Shown here: positions 22,028-28,541 of the stretch, piece after piece | Layout of the letters: every line of letters begins with the position of its first letter | Position numbering within the stretch: position 1 is the stretch's first letter | Origin: Natrarchaeobius halalkaliphilus | Lineage (GTDB): Archaea > Halobacteriota > Halobacteria > Halobacteriales > Natrialbaceae | Assembly (NCBI RefSeq): GCF_003841485.1 | Contig: NZ_REFY01000003.1 | Location: 372,001-436,000 of the forward strand | DNA length: 64,000 nucleotides | Direction of reading: 5' to 3' | Notes under the pieces: generated by a model | The model's input: only the letters and a program-made list of their open reading frames with translations | Databases searched by the model: none | What the model was told of the DNA's origin: nothing | Made by a program: the position numbers and the translations under genes

Positions 22028-22882
22028 GTGGCCGTACGCAGGGATCCACTCGACGAACTCGTCGTCCCCGACGGAACGCAAGCCAAAGAAGTCGCCCTCG
22101 AGACCGGCGGAGACGTCCTCGTCGGTGCCCGATCGACCGTCGAGTTCGGCGTGCGCGGTCGGAACGTCCTCGCCGGCGAGAACGTCGATTTCGGCGGCGA
22201 GATTGAAGCCGACGGCGACTGTCGGCTCGATATGTGGTGCGACGTCGCGGCGAACGTACTGGTCGGACAGGACGCCTACATCGGTGAACGAGTCCACATC
22301 GGCGGCGAGCTCAGGGTCGCTGGTGACCTCGATATCGGTGACGACGTCGATATCGAGGAGGGCTTCGAGGCCAACGGCTGGATAGTTATTCGAAACCCGA
22401 TGCCGACGATCGTCTTCCTGTTCGTCTATCTCAAACACCTCCTCCTCCTCGGTGAAGAAGACACCGCCCAGCGGCTCATCGACGAACTGGTCGACGACGA
22501 CGGAGAACCCGATGCCGAGCCGCTCGTGATACCCCGAAACGCGACCGTCGGGGACGACGCCTGGCGCGTCTCGACGCCCGCGACGATCGGTTCCGACTGT
22601 CGCCTGCACGGAAACGTCCGGGCCGAAACGATCGAGGTCGACACCGACTGCGACATCTTCGGGAGCCTTCGCGCTCGAGGCGAGGTCACGGTCGGTGAGG
22701 GAACCCGAATCCACGGAGATCTGACGACCCGAGACGGAAACGTGCTCATCGAAGCCGATGCGCGCGTCCTCGGTGACGTTTCCTGTACTGACCTCGAACT
22801 CCGTCCGGGTGCCGAAGTCGACGGAACGATCCGCGCCGACGGCGAGATTACGATGGGAACGTCCGAGCGTGACCTCGAGTGA
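22028..22882 (+). CDS. polymer-forming bactofilin-like protein
   Basis: A protein of about 284 residues made of short repeated beta-helix rungs with alternating hydrophobic and G/D residues (VDFGGEIEADGDCRLD, VHIGGELRVAGDLDIGDDVDI, VDTDCDIFGSLRARGEVTVG). This matches polymer-forming cytoskeletal proteins (bactofilin fold). A hydrophobic interruption in the middle (MPTIVFLFVYLKHLLLL, about residues 120-140) splits two beta-helix blocks and may be a membrane-associating hairpin. GTG 22028 is preferred: a TTTATTACC element at about 21996-22004 sits 27-30 bp upstream, so the message would be leaderless. The ATG-less upstream opening was rejected. Confidence 0.8.
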   Translation: MAVRRDPLDELVVPDGTQAKEVALETGGDVLVGARSTVEFGVRGRNVLAGENVDFGGEIEADGDCRLDMWCDVAANVLVGQDAYIGERVHIGGELRVAGDLDIGDDVDIEEGFEANGWIVIRNPMPTIVFLFVYLKHLLLLGEEDTAQRLIDELVDDDGEPDAEPLVIPRNATVGDDAWRVSTPATIGSDCRLHGNVRAETIEVDTDCDIFGSLRARGEVTVGEGTRIHGDLTTRDGNVLIEADARVLGDVSCTDLELRPGAEVDGTIRADGEITMGTSERDLE

Positions 22883-23259: not shown

Positions 23260-24135
23260 ATGCGGTCGATCGTACTGACGAAAGGCGTTCCCGACTTCTC
23301 GGAGGGTGCTGTGTCCTTCGACGAAGACGGCCACCTGGAGCGAGGAAAGACACCGACAGTCATGAACCCGAACGACGGCTTCGCCGCCGAGGCGGCCTTA
23401 CAGACGAGGGTTCGCCACGGCGGGCACGTCAGCGCGATGAGCATGGGGCCGCCGGGGTATGCCGAAGTACTCGAGGAAGCGATGGAGTCGGTGTACGCCG
23501 ACGACAGCTACCTGCTTTCGGATCGCGAACTGGCCGCGTCGGACACGTGGGCGACGGCGATCACGCTCAGCGCCGGTCTCGAGAAGTATCAGGAAGAAGT
23601 CGGTGAGATCGACCTCGTCTTTGCCGGCTTCAAGTCGGCCGACGGGGAAACGGGCCAGACCGGTCCCCAGACGTCCTGGGCGCTGGACTGGCCGATCGTC
23701 ACCCACGTGATCGCGCTCGATATCGATCCCGACGAGCGCCTCCTGCGGGCGAAGCGCCTCGTCGAGGGAGACGTCGACGAGATCGAGACCGTCGAAGCAC
23801 CGCTCCCGTGTTTCGTCGTCACCGATCCGGAGTTCGAACCGACGTACCGCAAAGCGTCCCATCGACTGTCGCACAAACGGCTTCGATCGGAGACCCAAGG
23901 GCGAGCGAGCGACCACGAAGAGCATCTCACGACCTGGAGTCAGGAGGATCTCAACCTCGATCCGGAGTACATCGGACTCGATGGCTCTCCGACGATCGTT
24001 TCCTCGGTCGACCCGATTCCCAAAGCGCCGTCGGAGCGCGAAGCGACTATGATCGAGTTCGACGATGACGACGGGATGGGACAGGTTCTCGGAGAAATGC
24101 AGCCGTTCGCCGCGAGCGGAGGTGACGGTCCGTGA
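23260..24135 (+). CDS. etfB: electron transfer flavoprotein beta subunit (FixA-like)
   Basis: A 291-residue ETF-beta/FixA. Segments VMNPNDGFAAEAALQTR, AMSMGPPGYAEVLEEAMES, DLVFAGFKSADGETGQTGP and LEVE-like PCFVVT correspond to the FAD/AMP-binding fold. It forms a heterodimer with EtfA and passes electrons to the FixC-type oxidoreductase. ATG 23260 is set by GGAGG at 23250-23254, five bases upstream; the ATG at 23248 overlaps that site. First gene of etfB-etfA-fixCX-unknown; its stop overlaps the etfA start by 4 bp. Confidence 0.95.
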   Translation: MRSIVLTKGVPDFSEGAVSFDEDGHLERGKTPTVMNPNDGFAAEAALQTRVRHGGHVSAMSMGPPGYAEVLEEAMESVYADDSYLLSDRELAASDTWATAITLSAGLEKYQEEVGEIDLVFAGFKSADGETGQTGPQTSWALDWPIVTHVIALDIDPDERLLRAKRLVEGDVDEIETVEAPLPCFVVTDPEFEPTYRKASHRLSHKRLRSETQGRASDHEEHLTTWSQEDLNLDPEYIGLDGSPTIVSSVDPIPKAPSEREATMIEFDDDDGMGQVLGEMQPFAASGGDGP

Positions 24136-25676
24136 CGGAGATCGAACCCGGCGAGCACACGGTCGACGAACTGAACGAGCGCCTCGAGACGGTCGACGAT
24201 GAAGAGGTCTTAGAAACCGTCCTCGAGGCCGAGCAGTCCGGACAGGATCGAAAGACGGCCCGCGAAGCGATCCGCAGTCGACTCGAGGCCGTCGATGCGC
24301 CCGGTAACGAGGAGAACGGAGCGAGCGGCGGCGATGAAGACGACGAGAGTGCTGGCGAAGAAGAACCCGACGCGGGAGACGACGAGAGTGCTGGCGAAGA
24401 AGAATCCGACGATGGAGGCGAGGAAGACGACGGGCTCACTCACCCCACCCGTGACAAACGCCACGTTCGGGCGCTTGCGGACGGTGACTACGAGGACATG
24501 TGGGTCTTCTGTGAGACGCAGGGTGGCGAGTTGCTCGAGGTGTCGCGTGAGATGCTCGGCAAGGCTCGCCGGCTGATGGACCAGTTCTCAGAGGACTACG
24601 GGGACGAAGAGCGCGTCGTCGCGTACCTCATGGGTGACGACTGCGAGGGGCTGGCCGAGGAGTGCATCGCCTACGGCGCGGACGTCGCGCTCTACCACGA
24701 CGATACGCGACTGGAACGGTTCCTCCACAAGCCGTACACCGAAATATCGGCTCATATGGCTCGCGGCGAGGGGACGGCCGAGAGTACGGACTGGCGCGAC
24801 TACGACAAGCCCCGGTATATCCTGTTCCCGGCGACGAACAACGGACGGGATCTCTCGGCAAAGGTACAGGCGGAGCTCGACTCGGGGCTCGCCTCGGACT
24901 GTTCTGACCTGTTCATCGAGGAAAACGAGGTCTCGAATCCCGTCAAGACCGGCGAACCCGGCGTCAAAAAGACCTTCGAGAAGGTACTTCACATGAAGCG
25001 ACCGGACTTCTCGGGCTTCGAGTACTCGACGATCCTCTGCCTCGACAACCCGGGTCGAGAGTTCCACCCCCAGGGGGCATCGATTATTCCGGGTAGCTTC
25101 GACCCGATCGAGCGCGACGACGACCGGGAGGGGGACGTGATCGAACACGACATGGAACTCGACGAGGACTGGTTCCGCGTCGAGATCACCGAGTACGACC
25201 AGCTCGAGGCCGGCGTCGATCTGACGGGCCACGAGGTCGTCGTCTGTCTCGGTCGCGGCATCGCGGACGACCCGACCGTGGGGATGGAGCTCGGACTCGA
25301 TCTGGTCGACGCGTTCGAGGACGCCGAACTCGCCATTACTCGAGGAATCGTCACCTCCTCGTACCAGTTCGAGGGCCACGTCGAACGGTACTCGAAAGAA
25401 GAACGCCAGATCGGTGAAACCGGACAGGTCGTCGCCCCCCAGCTCTACATCGCAGCGGGTGTCTCGGGTGCGGTCCAACACAAGGTCGGCATGGACCAAT
25501 CGGACACGATCGTCGCGATCAACACCGACACCGACGCGCGGATCCGAGACTTCAGTGATTACTTCATCGAGGGTGACCTGTTCGAGGTCCTGCCACGGTT
25601 GACCGACGCGGTCGAAGCGGGCGAGACGACGCTCGAGGCGGTTGCGGACGGACATGGAGGTGACGGACATGAGTAA
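24132..25676 (+). CDS. etfA: electron transfer flavoprotein alpha subunit with haloarchaeal N-terminal extension
   Basis: A 514-residue protein. Residues ~100-500 are ETF-alpha/FixB, with the FAD motif region VVVCLGRGIADD, then TRGIVTSSYQFEGH, GETGQVVAPQLYIAAGVSGA, and INTDTDARIRDFSDY. The first ~45 residues (HTVDELNERLETVDDEEVLE, ending TAREAIRSRLEAV) look like a separate helical module. It is joined by an acidic linker that contains a 13-residue tandem duplication. Start GTG 24132 overlaps the etfB stop. Normal FixB is about 310-330 residues, so the extension is about 100-180 residues depending on where the ETF core starts. Confidence 0.95.
   Translation: MTEIEPGEHTVDELNERLETVDDEEVLETVLEAEQSGQDRKTAREAIRSRLEAVDAPGNEENGASGGDEDDESAGEEEPDAGDDESAGEEESDDGGEEDDGLTHPTRDKRHVRALADGDYEDMWVFCETQGGELLEVSREMLGKARRLMDQFSEDYGDEERVVAYLMGDDCEGLAEECIAYGADVALYHDDTRLERFLHKPYTEISAHMARGEGTAESTDWRDYDKPRYILFPATNNGRDLSAKVQAELDSGLASDCSDLFIEENEVSNPVKTGEPGVKKTFEKVLHMKRPDFSGFEYSTILCLDNPGREFHPQGASIIPGSFDPIERDDDREGDVIEHDMELDEDWFRVEITEYDQLEAGVDLTGHEVVVCLGRGIADDPTVGMELGLDLVDAFEDAELAITRGIVTSSYQFEGHVERYSKEERQIGETGQVVAPQLYIAAGVSGAVQHKVGMDQSDTIVAINTDTDARIRDFSDYFIEGDLFEVLPRLTDAVEAGETTLEAVADGHGGDGHE
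24339..24404 (+). repeat. 27-bp in-frame tandem duplication in etfA linker
   Basis: The 27-bp unit at 24339-24365 (GACGACGAGAGTGCTGGCGA then AGAAGAA) recurs identically at 24378-24404, offset 39 bp or 13 codons. It encodes DDESAGEEE twice in the acidic linker. A recent slippage-type duplication is inferred from the exact identity. Confidence 0.85.
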
Positions 25677-27348
25677 CCAATCCGAGAGAGAACACTACGA
25701 CGCGATCGTCGTCGGCTGTGGTCCCGGCGGGGCGGCCGCCGCCGTACGACTTGCCGATCACGGCATCGAAACGCTCGTCTTAGAGCGCGGGACGGAAGCA
25801 GGTTCGAAGAACGTCTCCGGCGGTCTGATCTACGCGGAGGAGTCGGCACCGTACACCATCGACAGCCTCTTCGATGGCTTTCGCGAGCAAGCGGCCGAAC
25901 GGCCGGTCACGGAGTACCGCATTCACAACGTTGCGGGAAACAGCGTCAAAACGTACGATCTCACCGACCTCCACGAACACGACACCGACTGGTGTGACGC
26001 CGTCCTCCGGCGACGGATGGACTCGTGGCTCGAGGACCGCGTTCACGAGAAGACGAGCGAAACCGGCGGCGGCGTACTGACCGATGTCCGTGTGAACGGC
26101 CTCCTGCGCGAAAACGGGGAGATCGTCGGCGTCACCTGCGACGAACTCGATCCGATCGAAGCGGATCTGATCGTCGCCGCAGACGGGGTTAACTCCGAAC
26201 TCGCCCGTGATGCGGGACTGATGGACTGGGACGAGCCCGATGAGTGGTTCCAGGGCGTCAAGGCGGTCGTCGACATGGAGCCCGACGTGATCGACGATCG
26301 ATTCGATCTCGAGGCCGACGAGGGCGTTGCTCACCTGTTCTCGGGCGACCTCTTCGAGGACGTTCGCGGCGGTGGCTTCCTCTATACGAACGAAGACTCG
26401 CTGTCGATCGGGACCGTCTTCCACCTCGACAGCCTCGTCGAACAGCAAGCGGAGCCACACGAGCTGCTCGACGCGCTGCTCACTCATCCGCTCCTCGCGA
26501 CCTGGCTCGGGGACGAGTACGACGAGCGGGAGTACGCCGCAAAGCTCGTACCAGACTCGAAAAAGGTCGCCCATCCAGAACCCTACCAGGATCGGCTCGT
26601 CCTCGTCGGAGACGCCGCCGGCCAGATGCAGGCACAGGGACCCATTATCAAGGGAATGAACCACGCGGTGACGGCGGGTGCGCTCGCGGCCGACGCGTTC
26701 GCGGTTACCCGCGGCAACGCCGATCCCGAGGCTGCCGGCCGACGGTACGCACAGATGCTCGAGGACTCGGGAACGATGGACAAACTCCGTCCCCGACGGT
26801 ACGAGGTCGCCCGCGCCGTCGGAGAACGCGACCTCGTCACGAACGCCGTCGATCGCGTTCTCGAGTCGCCGATCGGATCGATCGCGGTTGGTAACCCGAT
26901 CTCGAACCGACTGCTAAAGCGGGCGTACAACTCGCCGTTCCTCGTGTCGATGCTTCCCGACACCAGCACGGGCTACGTCACGCTCCCGTCCGTCATCGGT
27001 GAGACTCACGGAAAAACGATCCACTGGGACAACGAGATCGAACCGCCGACGCTCGAAGAACGCATCGGGGATCTCACCTACGACACGGACGTCGGCAACC
27101 CGCACATCGAACTCGTCGACGAGTCCTACGACGCGAGCGGGGCCGCAGTCGCCACCTGTCCGGTCAGCGCGGAGGACTTCGGCGGCGGCTGTTATCGCTC
27201 GGAGACCGTCCAGACGAACGGAACCGAAAAGACGGTCGTTAGCCTCGACACCCAGCCCTGCGTCGAATGCGGGACCTGCGCCGTCGTGGCCGAAACCGAG
27301 TGGGAACACCCACGTGGCGGCAAGGGCGTCGAGTACCGGGAGGGATAA
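25669..27348 (+). CDS. fixC: FixC-FixX fusion: FAD oxidoreductase with C-terminal ferredoxin-like domain
   Basis: A 559-residue protein. The N-terminal FAD fold has GCGPGGAAAAVRLADHG, GSKNVSGGLIY and VLVGDAAGQMQAQGPI, as in ETF-quinone oxidoreductase and FixC. The last ~85 residues match FixX: ATCPVSAEDF, then CVECGTCAVVAETEWEHPRG and KGVEYREG, giving cysteines for one [4Fe-4S] cluster. FixC and FixX are usually separate genes. It should move electrons from EtfAB to the membrane quinone pool or a ferredoxin. Start ATG 25669 is set by a strong site GGAGGTGA at 25656-25663 and overlaps the etfA stop; ATG 25654 is too close to that site. Confidence 0.95.
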   Translation: MSNQSEREHYDAIVVGCGPGGAAAAVRLADHGIETLVLERGTEAGSKNVSGGLIYAEESAPYTIDSLFDGFREQAAERPVTEYRIHNVAGNSVKTYDLTDLHEHDTDWCDAVLRRRMDSWLEDRVHEKTSETGGGVLTDVRVNGLLRENGEIVGVTCDELDPIEADLIVAADGVNSELARDAGLMDWDEPDEWFQGVKAVVDMEPDVIDDRFDLEADEGVAHLFSGDLFEDVRGGGFLYTNEDSLSIGTVFHLDSLVEQQAEPHELLDALLTHPLLATWLGDEYDEREYAAKLVPDSKKVAHPEPYQDRLVLVGDAAGQMQAQGPIIKGMNHAVTAGALAADAFAVTRGNADPEAAGRRYAQMLEDSGTMDKLRPRRYEVARAVGERDLVTNAVDRVLESPIGSIAVGNPISNRLLKRAYNSPFLVSMLPDTSTGYVTLPSVIGETHGKTIHWDNEIEPPTLEERIGDLTYDTDVGNPHIELVDESYDASGAAVATCPVSAEDFGGGCYRSETVQTNGTEKTVVSLDTQPCVECGTCAVVAETEWEHPRGGKGVEYREG

Positions 27349-27349
27349 C

Positions 27350-27745
27350 GTGAGTCGGTACGGTCCTCGAATCGCCGCGCTCGAGCGCCGGGCGCTGCGC
27401 GAGCGCGCATCCCTCGACGCGGCCGACCTCGAGTCGGACGAGGCGACGAGGTTCCTTCGGGACGGTGCCGGGCAGGCGATCTGGCTCTACGTCGAGGGCC
27501 GAACCGGTGGCCGGATGGTTCGGTTCCCACCGGCGGAGATGCGAGCTCTCGAGTGCGCGATGAACGCGTGGCTCGAGTGTTACACCCGGTGTTACGGAGT
27601 CGAACTCGACGCCGAGTTTACCGTCCGAGAAGCCGCGGAACTACTGCTAGAGACGCATAACATCGTCGACGTCGCTCAGTTACTCACCGGTGTGCCGTCG
27701 CGTGAGTGTCAGAGCAGTCGAGACGCTGTAGACACTACGACGTAA
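27350..27745 (+). CDS. uncharacterised protein of the etf-fix operon
   Basis: A 131-residue protein starting at GTG 27350, one base after the fixCX stop, so almost certainly cotranslated. The sequence is soluble and mixed-charge (ALERRALRERASLDAADLES, AIWLYVEGRTGGRMVRF, ALECAMNAWLECYTRCYGVE). Two cysteines in LECYTRCYG and one in LECAM could bind a cofactor or metal, but no recognised motif is present. I know no family name. The operon context suggests an accessory factor of the FixABCX-type electron-transfer complex. Confidence 0.75.
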   Translation: MSRYGPRIAALERRALRERASLDAADLESDEATRFLRDGAGQAIWLYVEGRTGGRMVRFPPAEMRALECAMNAWLECYTRCYGVELDAEFTVREAAELLLETHNIVDVAQLLTGVPSRECQSSRDAVDTTT

Positions 27746-27875: not shown

Positions 27876-28541
27876 ATGTCCGTTCAATTCGAAAAACTCA
27901 CGTTCGATCGACTGGGACACGCGACCGTTCGCGTCGAAACCGACGACGAGACCGTCATCTACGTCGATCCGTGGGGGGAGGTGCTAGAAGAAGAGACGGG
28001 CGATGGCGATATCGTACTCATCACCCACGACGATTTCGATCACTACGATCCAGCCGCGATCGATACGGTATCCTCGCCGGCGGCGACGGTCGCCGCCTAC
28101 GAGGCGATCGACACGTCCGACCTCGATTTCGACGTCGTCGACCTGCCACACGACGGCAAAACGATGGTCGAGGGAATCGAGATCCGAACGGTCCCGGCCT
28201 ATAACGATCCGAACGGTGCCCACGTCGACGACGATGGGAACCCGTTCCACGCGGAGGGGGAGGTCGTCGGTCTCCAGTTCACGCTCGCGGACGCGACGAT
28301 CTATTTTCCGTCGGATACCGACTTCCTCGAGCATCACGGGTCGATCGATGCCGACGTATTCGTTCCACCGATCGGGGGTCACTACACGATGGATCGCAAC
28401 GAAGCCGCAGCGTTCGCCCGGAGCGTCGATCCGGAGCTCGTGCTTCCGGAGCACTACGATACGTTCGAGGCGATCGAAACCGACGCCGAGGCGTTCGCCG
28501 CGGACCTCTCCGAGGACGGTATCCGAGTCGAACTGTTCTGA
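27876..28541 (+). CDS. metallo-beta-lactamase-fold hydrolase (UPF0173 type)
   Basis: A 221-residue MBL-fold protein. The metal motif is THDDFDHYD (THxxxDH variant). Further ligands are in VPAYNDPNGAH, YFPSDTDF and LVLPEHYDTF. This is the compact UPF0173-like group of uncharacterised metal hydrolases. The usual HxHxDH is changed in that the first His-x-His reads H-D-D-F-D-H, typical of this subgroup. ATG 27876. The gene is followed by palindromic element copy A. Confidence 0.88.
   Translation: MSVQFEKLTFDRLGHATVRVETDDETVIYVDPWGEVLEEETGDGDIVLITHDDFDHYDPAAIDTVSSPAATVAAYEAIDTSDLDFDVVDLPHDGKTMVEGIEIRTVPAYNDPNGAHVDDDGNPFHAEGEVVGLQFTLADATIYFPSDTDFLEHHGSIDADVFVPPIGGHYTMDRNEAAAFARSVDPELVLPEHYDTFEAIETDAEAFAADLSEDGIRVELF

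Follow-up and report, generated by a model that had tools for sequence, protein, structure and literature searches.

What does a small protein of unfamiliar sequence do when its gene sits a single base behind a gene set for electron transfer? The question is raised by a locus in a 64,000-nucleotide stretch of the Natrarchaeobius halalkaliphilus genome (contig NZ_REFY01000003.1, positions 372,001 to 436,000 of the forward strand; hereafter ‘the window’, whose own numbering is used below), in which homologues of the FixABCX (EtfABCX) complex are followed by an open reading frame (ORF) for a 131-residue protein, here called orf131. From sequence and gene context we propose, with moderate confidence, that orf131 may be a dedicated fifth component of a fused, ‘one-cluster’ form of haloarchaeal FixABCX, a proposal that takes in both its putative binding to FixCX and the electron route set out below. 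The best supported part of this is that orf131 is very probably a dedicated partner of the one-cluster fused FixCX, either as a bound subunit, which we favour, or as an assembly factor.

Organisation of the operon

Homologues of FixA, FixB, FixC and FixX are all encoded in one operon, in which FixC and FixX form one chain:

23260-24135, plus strand: fixA (EtfB type), subunit of the bifurcating flavin adenine dinucleotide (FAD); PDB and Pfam matches
24132-25676, plus strand: fixB (EtfA type), extended N-terminally by about 110 residues; Arg290 aligned with Arg140 of Thermotoga maritima EtfB (TmEtfB)
25669-27348, plus strand: fixCX, FixC (FAD, quinone side) with a C-terminal FixX-like domain whose cysteines allow a single [4Fe-4S] site; matches to 7koe_C and 7koe_D, five invariant cysteines
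27350-27745, plus strand: orf131, 131 residues, no known family, predicted soluble protein of five to six helices (ORF, alignment and AlphaFold2 model)

The frames of fixA and fixB overlap by 4 bases and those of fixB and fixCX by 8; fixCX runs from an ATG at 25669 to a TAA at 27346-27348, after which the single base 27349 precedes the GTG of orf131 at 27350. Residues 9-354 of FixCX match PDB chain 7koe_C (E 4e-45), and its C-terminus (residues 463-559) matches 7koe_D, EtfX (E 6e-6). An earlier note on this DNA had described a fixC-fixX fusion with a 131-residue ORF one base after its stop, and the coordinates bear out both; it had also called the FixABCX set complete, which holds for the presence of all four homologues but not for the FixX part, whose five cysteines point to one cluster rather than two.

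A FixX domain with cysteines for a single cluster

These five cysteines (497, 508, 531, 534 and 537) are invariant in all 48 rows of a FixCX alignment, which adds 47 loci to the window (L034 and L109 among them seem to be a single contig). They are enough for one [4Fe-4S] cluster and fall short of the eight cysteine ligands of a two-cluster FixX, such that the fused FixCX, going by its cysteine complement, is a one-cluster form. The stretch of T. maritima EtfX with which it aligns has nine cysteines and two [4Fe-4S] clusters; the CxxCxxC motif is retained in the fused protein, whereas the equivalents of EtfX Cys29, Cys33 and Cys71 are lost. Fused FixX also has an insertion (27157-27192 in the window, with Cys497 and Cys508) that brings an extra invariant cysteine, making five where four would suffice; the alignment is ambiguous here, and the fourth ligand may be either of the two.

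A second haloarchaeal type, with FixC and FixX as separate proteins, was found at eight loci (L115-L122) and coexists with the fused type in some genomes (e.g. G100, G145 and G240). It comes from the same archaeal order and comprises the same four functions, with subunits 33-39% identical to those of the window; in the two loci listed FixC has 464 and 470 residues, and FixX 105 in both. Its FixX keeps eight cysteines at all eight loci, and none of these, in stretches of 12-14 kb, contains a match to orf131. Within the loci examined, orf131 therefore goes with the fused, one-cluster type.

Linkage of orf131 to fixCX

A scan of a genome contig collection found orf131 homologues at 35 further loci, and at every one of them the gene lies directly behind fixCX on the same strand. 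We then compared, by eye, the lists of genomes with either gene among 293 genomes of the order, a set that shares some members with the 35 named loci. The orf131 profile matched in 195 and FixCX (E up to 1e-60) in 186; 185 genomes have both, one has fixCX only, ten have a profile match only and 97 have neither (the arithmetic agrees: 195-10 = 186-1 = 185). A Fisher test gives p ~1e-64, for genomes that are related and not independent. The sole genome with fixCX only, G048, is a 64% complete assembly in which fixCX is cut by a contig end, and the ten with a profile match only comprise three hits in a transporter-like gene, apparently by chance, three members of one genus in which the gene stands beside a ferredoxin gene, and four in a divergent paralogue clade. 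Among the matches listed from the 185 co-positive genomes, 126 of 126 orf131-fixCX pairs share contig and strand at a distance of -4 to 161 bases (median 16), slightly overstated because it was counted to the first profile-matched residue. The co-occurrence survey that the earlier note had proposed thus places orf131 in all but one of the fixCX genomes, and what that note had named as telling against it, homologues mostly unlinked to fix genes, is the opposite of what these loci display.

At least 12 genera contain both species with the two genes and species with neither (judged by eye, with the chance hit in G214 counted as absent). A 294-genome sample of the phylum, which includes members of the order, gave no orf131 match outside the order; a full-length fused FixCX was likewise not seen outside it among 186, and four genomes there from outside the order have an unfused FixC. 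A protein-mode search of a plasmid collection returned no orf131 match. No natural fixCX-orf131 fusion was noticed in the loci read, where no systematic search for one was made. The fixCX gene itself is split into two matches in G134, G200, G050, G085 and G133, and in G156 (L076, L085) the orf131 behind fixCX is divided between two frames, whether because the copy is defective or because of a sequencing error.

Six profile matches with E values of 0.001-0.01 (in G122, G179, G214, G289, G182 and G117) were treated as chance and not as homologues. They sit in open frames of 442-455 codons, five of which look by eye like membrane transporters; in the sixth (L081) the matched piece resembles them.

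orf131 as a protein family

The earlier note had assigned orf131 to no known family, and this stands: searches gave no NCBIfam match and, in Pfam, two hits (E 0.07 and 0.98) of which neither passed the cut-off, PHROGs and PADLOC being left out, and Pfam was likewise empty for the L102 homologue and the L094 paralogue. Saying this, the homologues at 35 other loci and the 23 invariant columns of a 28-row alignment (27 of those loci plus the window, with eight left out) argue that the ORF is not a product of chance; judged from this conservation, orf131 is a real haloarchaeal family. A confident AlphaFold2 model, built on this alignment, is all-helical (mean predicted local distance difference test score, pLDDT, 87.4; predicted template modelling score, pTM, 0.81). 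In comparisons of the model with the PDB, the best Foldseek E value was 1.9, with none below 0.001, and the best VIA-align score (Z 6.4) was to a designed filament, a level that common helical arrangements also reach. A role as a DNA-binding regulator was considered and rejected, the best TetR match, 2rek, having a Foldseek probability of only 0.13 and a Z of 4.1.

Conservation was counted over 25 fix-linked and 10 other rows. Cys81 occurs in 22 and Cys77 in 13 of the 25 fix-linked rows, and, Cys81 apart, no conserved set of Cys/His ligands was found at positions kept in at least 22 of them; because no cysteine is invariant in these 25 diverse rows, a metal or Fe-S role for orf131 is unlikely. 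Arg93, by contrast, is found in all 25 fix-linked rows; of the ten others, two are gapped at this position and the eight that can be read have His (five) or Ala (three).

FixAB and the proposed electron route

The flavoprotein subunits resemble those of bifurcating enzymes. The closest PDB sequence to FixA is the bifurcating CarD (E 9e-37), with T. maritima EtfABCX also matched, and that to FixB is 7koe_B, TmEtfB (E 1e-37), with matches to CarE and LctC as well; in the Car and Lct complexes (CarCDE, LctBCD) the partner is a dehydrogenase. CarE and LctC bear a ferredoxin-like N-terminal domain, unlike the FixB extension, in which Pfam gave no match over the cut-off, to ferredoxin or otherwise. 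This extension (24132-24460 in the window) consists of a predicted helical motif, DELxxxLxxVDDxExLxxVLxAExxGxxR as read by eye, and an acidic linker that contains a short repeat. The fixB of L096 seems to carry two copies of the helical motif, and the unfused-type FixB of L117 is without the extension.

Residues at the flavin sites were compared by alignment, using the numbering in the accessible text of PMC10734219. The equivalent of TmEtfB Arg140 is kept as FixB Arg290, within RPDFSG, and those of TmEtfA Arg38, Pro239 and Val242 are kept in FixA, within LERGKT and GSPTIV. The flanking letters deviate from the motifs as published there, RPXFGG becoming RPDFSG and RXGV becoming RGKT; GSPTIV agrees with the T. 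maritima GSPTRV when the two are aligned. Of 49 loci scanned with simple patterns, 40 had LERG[KD]TPTVMNP and 44 had RPDFSGF; a fixA match was lacking in eight of the 49 and a fixB match in four. Compared with T. maritima EtfABCX (PDB 7KOE; PMC10734219), with which it shares the four Fix homologues and the equivalents of these four residues, the window’s system is set apart by the fusion of FixC to FixX, by orf131 and by the FixB extension.

A possible acceptor is found in the neighbourhood. At 9 of 11 fused loci from other haloarchaeal families, a dicluster ferredoxin gene lies immediately upstream of fixA:

L096, 4576-4905: ferredoxin gene directly before fixA
L097, L099, L102-L105, L107 and L108: ferredoxin gene directly before fixA

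Of the other two, L106 has the gene about 0.9 kb behind orf131 and L101 has none; the flanks of the 35 loci of the first scan, which are short, contain no ferredoxin gene. The upstream ferredoxin is a candidate acceptor of the low-potential electron. As the sole partner that orf131 might be tracking, ferredoxin was rejected: it is present in 286 of the 293 genomes, and the best copy in the window’s own genome is on another contig, C4.

By analogy with the T. maritima enzyme, FixAB would take electrons from reduced nicotinamide adenine dinucleotide (NADH) at the FAD of FixA, sending one to ferredoxin and the other, by way of the FAD of FixB, the single cluster of FixX and the FAD of FixC, to menaquinone. 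We speculate that orf131 (small, helical and cofactor-free) would bind FixCX, and that it may stabilise, or assist in forming, both the shortened FixX module with its one cluster and the interface between this module and FixAB. The earlier note had looked to acyl-CoA or ferredoxin as the source of electrons; the retained bifurcating-FAD residues and the position of the ferredoxin gene do not favour this over a route from NADH to ferredoxin and menaquinone.

Other neighbouring genes

Two further genes flank the operon in the window:

22043-22882, plus strand: bactofilin-domain gene, of cytoskeletal type, upstream of fixA, with a provisional start (PF04519, E 8.5e-12)
27876-28541, 130 bases after orf131: metallo-beta-lactamase-superfamily gene (PF13483, E 1e-21)

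At 25 of the 35 loci fixA has a bactofilin gene upstream of it, with short flanks and contig ends hiding some, and one locus, L102, has the full array of bactofilin, ferredoxin, fixA, fixB, fixCX and orf131. Bactofilin was rejected as the real partner of orf131: 271 of the 293 genomes have it, among them G193 and G285, which keep it with neither a fixCX nor an orf131 match. It is a common neighbour in Natrialbaceae, and the orf131-fixCX link does not require it. Among the loci compared, the metallo-beta-lactamase-superfamily gene adjoins fix only in the window’s own genome.

Evidence against the proposal, and alternatives

Several observations weigh against orf131 as a dedicated fifth component of FixABCX, and above all as an obligate subunit. 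Neighbouring genes are gained and lost as a block, such that co-occurrence alone is no proof of physical contact. In one genus (g55: G195, G198 and G271) the fused fix genes are missing, with an unfused FixC elsewhere, and the orf131 homologue adjoins the same ferredoxin gene, on one strand, in all three species having the homologue. A divergent paralogue clade, whose seven rows come from a single family and are clearly homologous to orf131 (hhalign probability 98.6%, E 4.8e-16, with six of the seven rows used), includes four genomes without fused fix; the other three (G104, G202 and G266) also have fused fix and orf131 elsewhere. The orf131 protein can, then, persist where the fused fix genes have gone, a point against its acting on FixCX alone. 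As regards the proposed chemistry, the published motif GXXSPTXV (accessible text of PMC10734219) has no literal match in FixA, and one cluster fused to FixC is also reminiscent of the electron transfer flavoprotein (ETF):quinone oxidoreductase, ETF-QO.

The paralogue stands beside a bactofilin gene in 5 of the 7 genomes:

L094, 6257-6631: divergent orf131 paralogue beside a bactofilin gene
L095, 5574-6065: divergent orf131 paralogue beside a bactofilin gene; by eye, it also precedes an Obg-like GTPase gene
L084, 1447-1788: divergent orf131 paralogue beside a bactofilin gene

In a tree of 38 of the 81 distinct rows (the chance hits L081 and L087, together with L085, were removed, L076 was also left out, and the remainder were dropped to thin close relatives), the three g55 rows fall on the fix-linked side, where many forks are weak, on a branch of length 0.84; this pattern is consistent with loss of the fix genes. 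The changed Arg93 and the long branches away from fix suggest that FixCX normally constrains orf131.

How, then, might orf131 act if not as a bound subunit? It is possible, though on balance unlikely, that it is a transient assembly or maturation factor, helping FAD or the [4Fe-4S] cluster into FixCX, or delivering FixCX to the membrane, and having no place in the finished enzyme. SdhE serves succinate dehydrogenase in such a way, and a small helical protein devoid of cofactor ligands, accompanying FixCX in 185 of its 186 genomes and persisting beside another Fe-S protein, ferredoxin, in g55, would suit the part; but general Fe-S or FAD insertion factors are seldom bound to one operon, and the canonical two-cluster FixX of the same archaea has no orf131 gene nearby at any of its eight loci. 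The g55 arrangement, and the survival of the paralogue clade in four genomes without fused fix, could also speak for a protein that works mainly with ferredoxin or alone, for instance in switching or regulating the flow of electrons, and whose position reflects a shared operon; this we consider quite improbable, given that ferredoxin is nearly universal whereas orf131 follows fixCX, and that the long g55 branch and the replacement of Arg93 in all eight readable off-fix rows look like release from a fix constraint. That orf131 travels with the operon as a gene unrelated to it seems to us far-fetched: block gain and loss would yield an identical co-occurrence, and homologues do occur off the fix locus, but its position is kept in every listed pair, with overlap down to -4 bases, and its sequence is under strong constraint.

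A separate doubt concerns the enzyme itself, which might be a plain ETF:menaquinone oxidoreductase, with FixAB bringing electrons from acyl-CoA dehydrogenases to the fused FixCX and no bifurcation taking place. ETF-QO has a similar plan, one chain with an FAD domain and one C-terminal [4Fe-4S] site that reduces quinone, and FixCX does score, below the cut-offs, against its Pfam models (Fer4_ETF_QO, PF05187, 18.6 bits against 24; ETFQO_UQ-bd, PF21162, 17.8 bits against 27.7). An ETF:menaquinone oxidoreductase set in natronoarchaea, in the accessible text of PMC6176080, might, we infer, also be of the fused type. We nevertheless find this account doubtful, for the FixAB partner is bifurcating in type: of the PDB sequences, bifurcating CarD is nearest to FixA and TmEtfB to FixB, the equivalents of Arg38, Pro239, Val242 and Arg140 are kept, and the ferredoxin gene precedes fixA at nine of the eleven loci from other families. 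At the other extreme, orf131 could be a true fifth subunit that fills the structural position of the lost distal cluster, in a one-cluster bifurcating NADH:ferredoxin/menaquinone oxidoreductase that would be a main respiratory entry for NADH in the haloarchaea having it. We regard this as very unlikely; inhibitor studies of Halobacterium salinarum point to a type II NADH dehydrogenase (accessible text of PMC8305020), which tells against FixABCX as a main NADH entry.

We return, therefore, to orf131 as a dedicated partner of FixCX. The earlier note had suggested that it may be a new subunit: the partnership draws support from the linkage and from the way in which the presence of orf131 tracks fixCX across the 293 genomes, while its standing as a bound subunit is something that we infer.

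Relation to known systems and significance

FixABCX has already been mentioned in haloarchaea. The available text of PMC6176080 describes, in natronoarchaea, a FixABCX set with a separate FixX, and a neighbouring EtfAB with an ETF:menaquinone oxidoreductase, the latter assigned to acyl-CoA oxidation. A review of bifurcation gives FixX two cluster motifs, and two haloarchaea terms looked for in its available text were not found (PMC6085437). In Haloferax volcanii, Hvo_2732 is given as a reductase paralogue whose locus includes an ETF alpha gene (PMC10821996, available text) and HVO_2729 is the ferredoxin ferB2 (PMC11349517, available text); locus numbers, set against the gene order seen here, suggest that HVO_2729-2733 is the corresponding operon, in which orf131 is probably HVO_2733, next to HVO_2732. 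In the open-licence PMC literature, as far as its text was accessible, we found no description of a fused haloarchaeal FixCX or of orf131. What appears to be new is thus a one-cluster variant of a known complex with an almost invariably linked extra component, to which a function is attributed from context and sequence.

With the fused type in 186 of the 293 haloarchaeal genomes sampled, this variant is commonplace in their energy metabolism. The Nuo of haloarchaea is without the NADH module NuoEFG, and the accessible text of PMC8305020 counts both the gene for NADH dehydrogenase and the way in which ferredoxin is re-oxidised among the open questions; the one-cluster FixABCX and its linked extra gene offer a definite candidate here. 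In T. maritima EtfX, only one of the variants at Cys29, Cys33, Cys61 and Cys64 gave an intact complex, from which its authors concluded that the complex depends on both clusters for its stability (PMC10734219, accessible text). The haloarchaeal operon also provides a natural test of whether a protein partner can replace the ‘two-cluster wire’ to quinone that was reported as necessary there.

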